The position numbers and the translations under genes were made by a program. 64,000 bases of DNA from Eubacteriaceae bacterium (GTDB lineage Bacteria; Bacillota; Clostridia; Eubacteriales; Anaerofustaceae), in the NCBI GenBank assembly GCA_017551505.1, contig JAFZLL010000058.1, forward strand, positions 1 to 64,000, read 5' to 3'. The notes under the pieces are model-generated. The model searched no databases. It was not told the origin of the DNA and saw nothing but the letters and a program-made list of their open reading frames with translations. Below are positions 54,051-58,918 of this stretch, piece after piece. Every line of letters begins with the position of its first letter. Positions within the stretch are counted from its first letter, which is position 1.

Positions 54051-54163
54051 TCATCATTTACACATTCCGATGGGTTTGCGTTCATTGCTTTTCCCGATTG
54101 AAACCTTATCTTCCGGATGCTATTATAGGTGGCAGATGCTGATGTATTATAAAAGGGTATGAA

Positions 54164-54520
54164 ATGGCGCACATATTGACTGAAGACGACAACTGGTTCA
54201 TTGACCTTGACCGAAAAGACCCTATTACACACGAAGGATTCCAGCTTGGCGATGAAGTGATAGTTTGCAGGGCATGCCGCTGCGTGCAATTGAATGACGT
54301 ATGGGAAATGGGGCCAACGGGATGCAAATACTGCGGAAGCAGCGAAGCCTCCGGAGATTTCGACAGAGATTTCATCGAGCATAAAGTCTCCGGGGCAACG
54401 ATAAACAAAGCAGGTCCGATAAGGATCACCCATAAAAAGAAAAAGAAGCTTTGGCCGTATTTCGCAGCAGGAGCTGCAGCATTAGCGCTGATCGTTCTGC
54501 TTATCCTGTATTTCCTATAA
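54164..54520 (+). CDS. Tail-anchored protein with a degenerate prokaryotic RING-like domain
   Basis: The 118-residue product has a cysteine-rich N-terminal domain. GFQLGDEVIVCRACRCVQLN carries C35, C38 and C40; W47 and GCKYCGSSE with C54 and C57 follow. The spacing matches the second half of prokaryotic RING-type binuclear treble clefs (C-P-x-C...G-D-x-V-V-C-x2-C...C-W...G-C-x-x-G-C). The first Cys pair is replaced by Asp19/His23, so one zinc site may be lost or altered. A lysine-rich stretch (91-95) precedes a single C-terminal helix (about 98-118), so the domain faces the cytoplasm. It converges on the E1-E2 operon and could be its E3-like partner; that is inference. A plain zinc ribbon is the alternative. 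Confidence 0.72.
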   Translation: MAHILTEDDNWFIDLDRKDPITHEGFQLGDEVIVCRACRCVQLNDVWEMGPTGCKYCGSSEASGDFDRDFIEHKVSGATINKAGPIRITHKKKKKLWPYFAAGAAALALIVLLILYFL

Positions 54521-54597: not shown

Positions 54598-55884
54598 TTA
54601 TTTTTCATTGTACTTACGGTGTTTTCTGCTGTACTCTGGCATTATCGCATCGTAATCCGCGGAAAGCTCATAATACCTCCGGGAATGTGTTTCAGCGGAG
54701 CGTACGGGCACTACATGGAATGGAGGAATGCCCAGAGCTCTCATGGGGAGATCCAGTATCTCGGGATCTGTCGAATCTAGCGGAAGTTTTGAGAGTGACA
54801 CGTCCTTCGGTTCGTTGATGTAGTTCTCACCGTATTCTTTCCTGGCTATGCAGTCATCGCAGTAATAATCATCGGTAAAGACCAGATGCTGAGGCTGGAA
54901 TATCTTTTTTTCTTTCCCGCAATTAGGGCAGCGGACCGTGGTGATGAAGGATTTATCGGTCTCCTCATCGAGCATGAGCTCGTCATAACCGTCCTTCGCG
55001 GTATATTCCAGGAATTCCCTCAATGTATTATCGCAGGAGAACGGAGTCTCTATTATGACATACCGGGCGTCCAGCTGATGCTGGCGGCAGTTCTCATCGA
55101 TTTCGATGGGAAAACGGTACATCATATCCAGCGCTCCGTTCATGTATATCTCCACACCATATGAAGGATTGATATCGCACAGTATCTTGCAAGCCTGCTG
55201 GACCTGCAGCCCGGATACCGCAGCAGACGCAGTCTGCACCGTAGGGATAAAACCCTGCTCAAGCGCTTTTCGTTTGGCTACGTCGCAGCTTTCCCTGAAA
55301 CGCTTTTCAAACTTGTATTTCGGGGCATTGCATTCGAAACAGCCTGTCTGATGCCCATTCATGATGTCGACTGTAAAGTTGAGCCCGCCTATGCTGGCAT
55401 CGATGTACGGGATGTCATATCGCATGCATATCTTATTGACGTACATACGGGTCTCGGCGTTGTCGAGACAGCCCAGAACTATATCGGCCTTGCGGAACAC
55501 TCCGTCACCAAGGCCGTAAACTATGTCACCGTCGAAATAATCGACGCATGCAGTATCTTCCAGGTTTATTTCCCGGACTCTTTCGGCAGCCAGCTTCGCT
55601 TTTTTCTTGCCCACGTCGTTCTGCGTAAAGAGTACCGTACGCGTCAGGTTGCTTGTCTCGATGGTATCCATATCGCAGATGAAGATATTGCCGAAGCCGA
55701 GGAGCGCCAGGTTCTTTAAAGTCTCATTTCCGATGGCACCGGCGCCTGTAACGATGACCGTCGAGTGCTTTATAATCTCCTGCTGCCAGCCGGGGATCCT
55801 CCCCTGACGGCTGAATTTGCCGTTTTCCGGACTTTCGGGATCATCCTCAAGGTCATATTTTTTTATCGCCTTAAAACCCTTCAT
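54598..55884 (-). CDS. E1-like (ThiF-fold) activating enzyme of a ubiquitin-like system
   Basis: The enzyme would adenylate the Ubl C-terminus and pass it to its own cysteine. The 428-residue product has GKFSRQGRIPGW, the nucleotide loop TGAGAIGNE (46-54), the acidic ICDMDTIETSNLTR (69-82), KKAKLAAERV and LGCLDNAETR. The likely catalytic Cys200 is in RESCDVAKRK. Cys182/185 with Cys266/His269 can form the structural zinc site. An added C-terminal domain (about 275-350) starts like a beta-grasp fold (DNTLREFLEYTAKDGYDEL) and carries a zinc ribbon CPNC (319-322)/CDDC (342-345). It is the last gene of the operon, 24 bases after the JAMM gene. Confidence 0.9.
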   Translation of the reverse strand: MKGFKAIKKYDLEDDPESPENGKFSRQGRIPGWQQEIIKHSTVIVTGAGAIGNETLKNLALLGFGNIFICDMDTIETSNLTRTVLFTQNDVGKKKAKLAAERVREINLEDTACVDYFDGDIVYGLGDGVFRKADIVLGCLDNAETRMYVNKICMRYDIPYIDASIGGLNFTVDIMNGHQTGCFECNAPKYKFEKRFRESCDVAKRKALEQGFIPTVQTASAAVSGLQVQQACKILCDINPSYGVEIYMNGALDMMYRFPIEIDENCRQHQLDARYVIIETPFSCDNTLREFLEYTAKDGYDELMLDEETDKSFITTVRCPNCGKEKKIFQPQHLVFTDDYYCDDCIARKEYGENYINEPKDVSLSKLPLDSTDPEILDLPMRALGIPPFHVVPVRSAETHSRRYYELSADYDAIMPEYSRKHRKYNEK

Positions 55885-55908: not shown

Positions 55909-56574
55909 CTATTTTCTGAGCTCTTTTAATACCGAATCATCGCTGGATGTCCTGAATTTTGCCACGTCAACGTATTCTTCCCCTTCGGGCACGACGAATA
56001 TGCAACTGGCTTCCTTCACTTCACCGCCGTGGAAAGCTCTCCATTCCAAAGCCTGGGGATTCAGCACGAGCGCGAACTGCCAGTCATTGAAATAATCCTT
56101 TTTTTGAGTCTGCGCGTCAGTGACCGACATGAATACATTCAGGAAAGCGGGGTGAGTATGATACCAGCCGACCCTGCGCAGTTTGCCTTCGGACTGCTCA
56201 ATGAGCTTCATTTCCCTGTTGGTGGCATCGATGTTCGAATCATGTCCGATAATGACGTGGACAAAGGAACTGTTGGTATCCCGTGCGGGCACCATGTGCT
56301 CCGCGACAGCGTAAAGCTTTCCTGTTGCGGGATCCTTATAGACGTTCCCTACCATATATCCTGCCTGTTCGATCATGTTTTCATCGTCTGACTTATTCCA
56401 ATGTATATGCTCATCGAGTTCCCTGAGGGCCTGAGGCGTCAGGAACAGCAGATATGTGCCGGGATCGCTCTTGGTATAGGAATAGGGATAACTATCGTTT
56501 AACAACTCATCAGGTATCGGCCTTTCTTCGGGAACGAATTCCCCAGATCTTCCGATCACTTTAAATCCTTTCAA
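55909..56574 (-). CDS. JAMM/MPN-domain metalloprotease (deubiquitinase-like)
   Basis: The 221-residue product has the JAMM motif: Glu69 (MIEQAGYMVG), then GWYHTHPAFLN with His139 and His141, and MSVTDAQTQ with Ser150 and Asp153. All zinc ligands and the catalytic Glu are present. The family cleaves isopeptide bonds or trims Ubl precursors. Since the neighbouring Ubl ends two residues after Gly-Gly, precursor trimming and deconjugation are both likely. I chose the TTG at 56574 because AAGGAGG lies just upstream; the frame is open to 56604, but that part contains the ribosome-binding site. It lies between the Ubl and E1 genes. Confidence 0.9.
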   Translation of the reverse strand: MKGFKVIGRSGEFVPEERPIPDELLNDSYPYSYTKSDPGTYLLFLTPQALRELDEHIHWNKSDDENMIEQAGYMVGNVYKDPATGKLYAVAEHMVPARDTNSSFVHVIIGHDSNIDATNREMKLIEQSEGKLRRVGWYHTHPAFLNVFMSVTDAQTQKKDYFNDWQFALVLNPQALEWRAFHGGEVKEASCIFVVPEGEEYVDVAKFRTSSDDSVLKELRK

Positions 56575-56636
56575 TCTTTCCTCCTTAACTCTGACAGAGA
56601 TCAAGGCATGCTGGAATGCATGCCCTGAGATGACAA

Positions 56637-56897
56637 TTATTGGTTCCCGCCCTGCGGTATATCGATAAGATCGATGGTGCAGCCGTCGGTGAGGCCTGCG
56701 GACTCAAGGGTCTGATCCCCTTCGATCTTGGAGCCTCCACTGACAGCCAGCCTGTATGTCTTCTGTGCATCAACACCGGTGATGAATTCTTCAGCGACAA
56801 GGGCTTCTATGATCTCGTCAGCAGTCAGGTCCGGCTCGATCTGTGTCTCCAGATAGGCTCCTGTGGAAGGATGTCTGAATTTTACCAAGTACTCCAT
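56637..56897 (-). CDS. Ubiquitin-like beta-grasp protein ending in Gly-Gly-Asn-Gln
   Basis: The 86-residue product has the strand-strand-helix-strand pattern of the beta-grasp fold: MEYLVKFRHPSTGAYLETQI, the helix LTADEIIEALVAEEFI, KTYRLAVSGGSKIEGDQTL and the final strand GCTIDLIDI. It ends Pro-Gln-Gly-Gly-Asn-Gln, so Gly83-Gly84 would become the active C-terminus after removal of Asn-Gln. The body recalls YukD/EsaB-type ubiquitin-like proteins. AAGGAG lies seven bases before the ATG. Lys46 and Lys57 could allow chains, though this is speculative. Confidence 0.9.
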   Translation of the reverse strand: MEYLVKFRHPSTGAYLETQIEPDLTADEIIEALVAEEFITGVDAQKTYRLAVSGGSKIEGDQTLESAGLTDGCTIDLIDIPQGGNQ

Positions 56898-57008: not shown

Positions 57009-57506
57009 TCACATTATATCGGGCGTTTTGATTTCCGGAAGAGGCTGAACGTCACAGGGGAAAAGGCGCGGATTCTTTTTATACCATTTATAGGCTTCCT
57101 GATTTGCGGGGCGCGCCGGATTGACCACCGCAGGGTCGAACTGCAGAGACTGCAGAAGTCTCACCACAAAATGCCCGAGGCTCTCGGACGCGTTCCAAAA
57201 ATCCCCGGAACACCATTTCCCGTTCTTAAACCAAACCGGGTTATACGCCTTCGGCTGTCCTTCCATGAATGCGAAGGGAGCGTTGCGGGGATAGTCCTCT
57301 GAAAGCGTTATCCTGACCTGGCATGAGTCCATCATCTCATTTTGCCCGCAGTAGGTGCGAATATGGATCGTCAGCAGATATTCGTCTGCATAAGGCTCCT
57401 CCCCTCCCGTAACAGTCACAGTGACCAGAGGGCTCTCATCAATGAGCCTCATCTCCAGATAATCATTTTTTAGCCTCATGCGACGGATCTCATCAAAACT
57501 CGGCAT
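57009..57506 (-). CDS. E2-like ubiquitin-conjugating enzyme
   Basis: The 165-residue product has the UBC fold. DEIRRMRLKNDYLEMRLI forms the first helix, then VTVTVTGGEEPYADEYLLTI and CQVRITLSEDYPRNAPFAFM (the YP..AP element) follow. KAYNPVWFKNGKWCSGDFW holds the likely catalytic Cys99 in the position usual after the HPN-like loop, here YNP. The end FDPAVVNPARPANQEAYKWY matches the last crossover helices. AGGAG lies seven bases before the ATG. It heads the operon E2, Ubl, JAMM, E1. Confidence 0.9.
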   Translation of the reverse strand: MPSFDEIRRMRLKNDYLEMRLIDESPLVTVTVTGGEEPYADEYLLTIHIRTYCGQNEMMDSCQVRITLSEDYPRNAPFAFMEGQPKAYNPVWFKNGKWCSGDFWNASESLGHFVVRLLQSLQFDPAVVNPARPANQEAYKWYKKNPRLFPCDVQPLPEIKTPDIM

Positions 57507-57700: not shown

Positions 57701-58888
57701 TCAGAAAGCGAAATTGCCGTCCTTGAATATCTGGACTTCGTTGCCGTCAACGTCAGTGCCGACGATGTTCATATCGGGCGTGCCGATCATGAAGTCGATA
57801 TGTATCTGTGAAGAGTTGAATCTTTCGTCGCCTCCGCCCAATGCGCGTCCGAGGGCCAGATGGCATGAGGCATTCTCATCGATCAGGGTCGTGTAATAGA
57901 CCAGTCCGCTGCGGGAGATCGGAGAATCATATTCTACCAGTGCGGACTCACCAAGGTAGGAAGCACCTTCATCAGTATTGACAAGGGCTTCCAGCATCTC
58001 CTTGCCTTCATCTGCAATAACTTCAACGACCTTGCCCTTCTCAAAACGGAAGCCGAAGTTCTCTACTTTTTTCCCTCCCAGGACCAGCGGGCGTGATGAG
58101 TAGACAACCCCCTCAGTGGCCCATTTGTCCGGGGTGGTGCATGTCTCCTCTGTGGGCATATTGGGGGTGAAGCTGATGCGTTTGGAGTCTTTCGGAGGAG
58201 TAAATGAATAACGGCTGTTCTCCGTGAGGCCGACGACCAGGTCCGTGCCGTTGGATGCAGTATAATGGAGCTTCCTCAGGTTAAGGGAATCCATTTTCTG
58301 GCCTTTGAGCTGCTTGGCAGCTTTCTTTTCCTCCCAGGTCTTTTCGATATCGTTGTCTTCCGTAATGTAGCAAAGCTTCAGCAGCGTCTCCCACAGCATA
58401 TCGAGGACTCTATCCTTCGGCTCGTTCGGGAAAACGATCTCGGCCCACGACTGGGTGGGCACCATTGCAATGAGCCACTGTGTGTCCCTCGTATAAGCGC
58501 GGGAGATATTCCTCATATTATCTACAAAAGCGAAAATAGCGTTTGCCTGTGCTTCAGTGGCATCCTCCATCAGCTTTGTGTTGACGCCTTCCAGCCTTAC
58601 GACAGCAGCGCCCTGCTTTAAATAGGTCTCATAGCTCTCCCTCTGCCAGGGAAGTATCTCTGTCATACTCTCAGCGGATTCGTACTTTGATCTGACCTTC
58701 AAAAGCCCGAGATCCAGATACGTTACGATGACCTGTCCGGCTCCGGCTTTGTAGCATTCTTCCGCAAAAACAGGTACGAACTGGTAGGCATCAGGCATAG
58801 CCTCGACCATGACCTTTTGTCCGGGCTGAACATTGACGCCGACCTTTGCGAGCATATAGGCGTATTTCCTGATCATTTTTTCATCCAT
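57701..58888 (-). CDS. M29-family aminopeptidase (AmpS/PepS type)
   Basis: The family uses two metal ions to remove N-terminal residues from peptides in the cytoplasm. The 395-residue product has KYAYMLAKVGVNVQPGQKVM, the metal ligands in LHYTASNGTDLVVGL, FTPNMPTEE, EALVNTDEGASYLGE and HLALGRALGGGDERFNSSQI followed by HIDFMIGTPDM. The order matches the family. I chose the ATG at 58888; the frame is open to 59044, but the extra part overlaps the promoter and structured leader. GGAGG lies 13 bases upstream, a long spacing, so the in-frame TTG 12 bases earlier cannot be fully excluded. Confidence 0.93.
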   Translation of the reverse strand: MDEKMIRKYAYMLAKVGVNVQPGQKVMVEAMPDAYQFVPVFAEECYKAGAGQVIVTYLDLGLLKVRSKYESAESMTEILPWQRESYETYLKQGAAVVRLEGVNTKLMEDATEAQANAIFAFVDNMRNISRAYTRDTQWLIAMVPTQSWAEIVFPNEPKDRVLDMLWETLLKLCYITEDNDIEKTWEEKKAAKQLKGQKMDSLNLRKLHYTASNGTDLVVGLTENSRYSFTPPKDSKRISFTPNMPTEETCTTPDKWATEGVVYSSRPLVLGGKKVENFGFRFEKGKVVEVIADEGKEMLEALVNTDEGASYLGESALVEYDSPISRSGLVYYTTLIDENASCHLALGRALGGGDERFNSSQIHIDFMIGTPDMNIVGTDVDGNEVQIFKDGNFAF

Positions 58889-58918
58889 AGCACTATACAA
58901 TCCTCCGTGATTATTCCC

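Follow-up and report, generated by a model that had tools for sequence, protein, structure and literature searches.

Bacterial operons that encode a full E1-E2-RING set come nearer to eukaryotic ubiquitylation than any other prokaryotic system, and to our knowledge their RING partner has hardly been studied. Prokaryotic RING families residing in such operons were reportedly described by Burroughs and colleagues in 2011. The RING is a cross-braced domain in which ligands 1, 2, 5 and 6 form zinc site 1 and ligands 3, 4, 7 and 8 form zinc site 2; the SP-RINGs of the SUMO E3s (Siz/PIAS) employ a C-H-C-C set of zinc ligands. SP-RING domains keep the distal (E2-distal) site only, and the hemiRING of human UBR4, a single-zinc RING-like module that binds E2, has kept the proximal site and lost the distal one (PMC10873205). 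In bacterial RINGs two of the zinc-ligand pairs can be absent, with the ligands of both the central hairpin and the C-terminal extension retained (PMC11354881), and reduced RINGs as such have therefore already been noted. The available part of Iyer et al. (2006; PMC1779556) does not describe a RING in operons of this type.

The operon of Caldiarchaeum subterraneum encodes a ubiquitin-like protein (UBL), E1, E2 and JAMM peptidase together with srfp, a small complete two-zinc RING-H2 that has been shown to act as an E3 and whose residue W58 matters for activity (PMC5654768). BilABCD and CBASS Cap2/Cap3 are likewise bacterial conjugation systems with E1, E2, JAB and UBL components, and the Bil operon as described is without a RING protein (PMC11354881). 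Here we report on an operon of this general kind and on the small gene beside it, both located in a 64,000-nucleotide stretch of DNA from a Eubacteriaceae bacterium (contig JAFZLL010000058.1), referred to below as the window. The E1 and UBL of the window operon differ in architecture from those of the Bil and CBASS systems, and the Bil E1 model yields only a partial match to the ThiF domain of the window E1. Operon RINGs of the Prok-RING_1 family (PF14446) are already known; what is new here is a tail-anchored half-RING beside a compact operon.

The operon and its convergent neighbour

The operon is transcribed from the minus strand in the order E2, UBL, JAB and E1 (Table 1). The neighbouring open reading frame, whose product we refer to as the half-RING protein, lies on the plus strand and runs towards the E1 gene, the two stop codons being separated by 77 bases, in agreement with the sequence-only reading, which had placed it fewer than 80 bases from the operon. 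The stem-loop in this gap far exceeds shuffled sequences (z -5.1 on the plus strand and z -8.0 on the minus strand) and is probably a two-way terminator common to the half-RING and E1 genes. The promoter-like site is situated 38 bases 5' of the ATG. With a codon preference of 0.20 bits per codon the half-RING frame is close to the E2 (0.22) and JAB (0.27) genes; the operon genes range from 0.22 to 0.44, and two antisense open reading frames score -0.17 and 0.03. The frame is a real gene, and its codon use, the promoter-like site and the hairpin together imply that it is probably expressed as a single-gene transcript that meets the operon at the common terminator.

Table 1 Features of the half-RING gene and the adjoining operon in the window
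Feature	Coordinates	Strand	Length	Characteristics
Promoter-like site of the half-RING gene	54098..54126	+		TTGAAA-17-TATTAT, TG ahead of the second hexamer; consensus match only
Tail-anchored half-RING protein	54164..54520	+	118 aa	Residues 19-58 RING-like, 90-95 basic, 97-117 membrane helix
Gap between convergent stop codons	54521..54597	.		Strong stem-loop
E1-like ThiF-family enzyme	54598..55884	-	428 aa	PF00899, 4.2e-48; 37% identity to related-operon E1
JAB/JAMM metallopeptidase	55909..56604	-	231 aa	PF01398, 1.8e-6; HTHP-x7-SxxD motif
Ubiquitin-like protein, YukD-like	56637..56897	-	86 aa	Ends PQGGNQ; PF08817 E 2.7e-5, just under cut-off
E2-like protein	57009..57506	-	165 aa	UQ_con 7.2e-4; conserved Cys in KWCSGDFW

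The operon components show a number of peculiarities. The JAB protein is without the transmembrane (TM) and LysM regions that are found in relatives such as that of locus L089. The E2 retains its cysteine block but has NPVW in place of the HPN motif. Among related UBLs, most terminate at ...PEITAG or close to it, with one glycine only, and for several this is the exact end; in the window UBL two residues follow the Gly-Gly, and the JAB peptidase may thus be needed to free it. Both the half-RING protein and the E2 are confined to this one genome among the 67 of the order, and plasmids and viral contigs yielded no match to the E2. The flanking M29 peptidase and deaminase genes were not found side by side in relatives; the M29 aminopeptidase (window 57704-58891) has a second copy, 87% identical, elsewhere in the genome at G000:C26:126725-127909.

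Predicted zinc-site anatomy of the half-RING protein

The residues highlighted by the sequence-only reading are all present: the cysteines C35, C38, C54 and C57 (CxxC-x15-CxxC), W47, and the run G29-D30-E31-V-I-V-C35, as are a lysine-rich stretch (H90-KKKKK) and a hydrophobic C-terminal helix. When aligned by MAFFT to 36 operon RINGs, D19-P20, T22, C35 and C38 fall in exact register with the RING C-P, C, C and C, and Q42-L43, V46, W47 and G53-C54 with H-H, C, W/Y/F and G-C. D19 and T22 thereby occupy the positions of C1 and C2; C35 and C38 correspond to C3 and C4; Q42-L43 stand in place of the His pair and V46 in place of C6; W47 takes the aromatic position, which is the E2-contact position of RINGs, and G53-C54 that of the G-C7. 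Allowing for a shortening by two residues, we assign C57 to C8; the domain ends in CxxC where the operon RINGs have CxxxxC. One element of the sequence-only reading has to be corrected at this point: it had proposed Asp19 and His23 as the replacement for the first Cys pair, but T22 rather than H23 aligns there, and the third pair (His, Cys) has gone as well.

Given the cross-bracing of RINGs, this pattern leaves the protein without exactly one zinc site and with exactly the other: site 2 is intact (C35, C38, C54, C57), and the ligands of site 1 are all gone (D19, T22, Q42/L43, V46). Four ligands remain where Prok-RING_1 requires eight cross-brace zinc ligands. We find no basic linchpin residue after C57, which we count against the half-RING reading. 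In U-box proteins an Asp can replace the first Cys, and the D-P-I-T at the start of the half-RING domain resembles them. The ligand pattern fits the single site 2 of the SP-RINGs; the protein differs from these by its four cysteines, its prokaryotic origin and its membrane anchor, and no sequence relation to them is seen. Compared to the UBR4 hemiRING, the loss is the reverse. W47 would correspond to srfp W58; srfp harbours both zinc sites and the half-RING protein would have one.

An AlphaFold2 model built with RING rows in the alignment has pLDDT values of about 79-89 in the stretch from residue 11 to 50. The solved folds closest to it are RING domains, for example RNF165 (Z 5.1, 1.8 Å, 46 residues), and VIA-align returns chiefly RING and U-box domains; since RING rows guided the model, it does not constitute independent evidence. 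The single-sequence fold (mean pLDDT 44.7, low confidence outside the TM helix) is too weak to use, and Foldseek gave no match at E 0.001 or better.

Related operons and the strength of the homology

Direct searches with the half-RING protein returned little. There was nothing convincing in the curated families of Pfam, NCBIfam, PADLOC and PHROGs, a result that we count against the RING reading, nor among PDB sequences; no homologues were detectable in 13 genomes of the family, 67 of the order and 391 of the class, and the direct search was equally fruitless in phage records and viral contigs. The class search also gave matches at E 0.001-1, which we attribute to chance: they are short or of low identity, and several contain internal stops or lie within far longer frames; a match in L034 with 59% identity over 22 residues was without a matching motif and was rejected. 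Neither the whole protein nor the domain alone gave any match to Prok-RING_1, whose curated cut-off is 29.1 bits, and a scan of the genome found no place above this cut-off.

An E2 alignment search identified 34 related loci in GTDB genomes and a further six in the class, and a phylum search added L036, giving about 40 in total. These UBL/E1/E2/JAB loci occur in Acidobacteriota, Verrucomicrobiota, Bacillota and a few other groups, and their usual gene set comprises a trypsin-like protease, UBL, E1, JAB, an FHA/membrane protein, a RING and E2. A Prok-RING_1 protein is encoded in 29 of the 32 distinct loci that include an E1 gene (L036 and L073 refer to a single contig, counted once). The three loci without a RING (L078, L080 and L090) are on short contigs of 7.4, 4.1 and 4.7 kb that end inside or beside the operon. 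Scanned singly, all six RING proteins (five related proteins and that of L036) score above the Prok-RING_1 cut-off. A neighbourhood survey of this kind had been suggested with the sequence-only reading. In the family, order and class genomes searched, no relative of the half-RING protein was found away from such operons.

Many operon RINGs, though not all, end in a membrane segment, which in some of them is a TM2 or CD225 domain with two helices. The combination of a CxxC...CxxC pair with such a segment occurs in 20 of 695 genes of the related loci (a count without the window gene, which is displaced by a longer antisense frame), and 18 of these 20 are the operon RING protein. RINGs are also fused to varied membrane modules, namely CD225 (IFITM-like), TM2, DUF2628 and a membrane-anchored trypsin-like protease (L079:5141-5674, L075:6257-6847, L092:6986-7660, L056:1126-2403). 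In L062 the operon is apparently duplicated: 12 kb hold a pair of E2 genes, a pair of JAB genes and as many as three RING genes. At L093:10757-11347 (minus strand) the UBL carries a fused zinc ribbon and membrane segment, and this modifier may itself be membrane-bound or need cutting.

Like the RING component of these loci, the half-RING gene adjoins the E1 of a UBL/E1/JAB/E2 cluster, and its helix 97-117 provides the C-terminal membrane segment that is frequent among operon RINGs. It shares with the Prok-RING_1 operon proteins the context, the spacing of the N-terminal zinc domain up to the Trp, the basic linker and the membrane segment; it differs in having four of the eight ligands and a CxxC end, in falling below detection by the model and in its separate, convergent transcription. 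The last point, in which it departs from most relatives, counts against the RING reading.

The operon of L089 has the E2 that scores closest to that of the window and shares the top place for E1, and like the window operon it is without FHA and protease genes. Its RING protein of 112 aa consists of a RING, a linker and a single C-terminal membrane helix, and among the 36 operon RINGs it is the best match to the half-RING protein (z 5.45, not reached by any of 500 cysteine-preserving shuffles; the median z of all 36 is 2.5). The E2, E1 and RING matches all point to L089, a concordance which chance would not readily give. A profile of the operon RINGs scores the half-RING protein at 10.8 bits, a score reached by none of 2000 full shuffles and by two of 2000 cysteine-preserving ones. 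From sequence alone the homology to RINGs is modest, and the case for the protein's identity is cumulative, drawing on where the gene lies, how the protein is built, which ligands it keeps and how well it matches the RING of the closest operon.

The same comparisons bear on an alternative, namely that the protein is a zinc-ribbon and membrane-helix accessory factor of the same class of operon that is not derived from a RING and binds a partner or serves as a membrane sensor. Zinc-ribbon/TM proteins adjoin the UBL in L093 and L094, CxxC-x15-CxxC is also compatible with a ribbon, and zinc-ribbon proteins from related loci can score as high as the half-RING protein or higher against the RING profile. 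Against this, the half-RING protein scores lower on a zinc-ribbon profile from these loci than on the RING profile (7.7 against 10.8 bits), and those Pfam zinc-ribbon models that match the E1 weakly give no match to it. A ribbon would also leave unexplained the D-P at C1, the GDEVIVC run and W47 at exact RING spacing, and also why the closest operon supplies the best-matching RING, and we regard it as unlikely.

A candidate membrane-anchored E3

The half-RING protein is in our judgement probably a diverged, tail-anchored descendant of the operon Prok-RING_1 proteins, RING-like in nature, that docks the E2 at the membrane as a scaffold-type E3. It falls outside Prok-RING_1 and is not filed there; it probably works like a member of that family. 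The domain would fold as a RING-like treble clef round one zinc ion, with hydrogen bonds doing the work of the E2-proximal site 1, in the manner of eukaryotic SP-RINGs, and the lysine-rich stretch ahead of the helix would hold it at the cytoplasmic side of the membrane. The JAB peptidase would remove the Asn-Gln tail of the UBL, which the E1 would activate; the half-RING domain would bind the operon E2, and the UBL would be transferred to targets on the membrane or close to it, the half-RING protein itself being non-catalytic. The sequence-only reading is supported where it sees a RING-like, tail-anchored protein tied to the operon, a layout shared with the L089 counterpart, and its membrane E3 stays a candidate; D19 and H23 as substitute ligands find no support.

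The protein might instead be RING-derived without E3 function, a mere membrane tether or regulator, or heading for loss. All four E2-proximal ligands are gone, the operon occurs in one of the 67 genomes of the order and, given an E2 without HPN, the whole operon may have drifted, a consideration that also weighs against the half-RING reading. The open reading frames are nevertheless intact, the catalytic Cys of the E2 and the JAMM motif of the JAB are conserved, codon use is coding-like and W47 is kept; SP-RINGs moreover demonstrate that an E3 can function without site 1 (PMC10873205). We consider this reading rather improbable. That an unrelated small membrane protein lies beside the operon by chance, as its convergent separate transcription and want of a family match could imply, is very improbable considering that the CxxC pair with a C-terminal TM segment is rare outside operon RINGs (2 of 695 genes) and that match strength tracks operon relatedness.

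A bolder proposal, which we put forward tentatively and hold to be somewhat short of an even prospect, is that the half-RING protein constitutes a bacterial counterpart of the SP-RINGs: a one-zinc RING without the E2-proximal site, acting as the membrane-anchored E3 of a complete, self-contained UBL-E1-E2-JAB system with conjugation at the membrane. Were this true, the reduction from RING to half-RING would have occurred independently in bacteria. The survey suggests that such operons almost always include a RING, often a membrane-bound one, and the window protein suggests that one zinc site can go while the E2-facing Trp stays. The compact set of five genes, with a RING of only 118 aa, is small enough for reconstitution and could show whether these bacteria tag proteins at the membrane.
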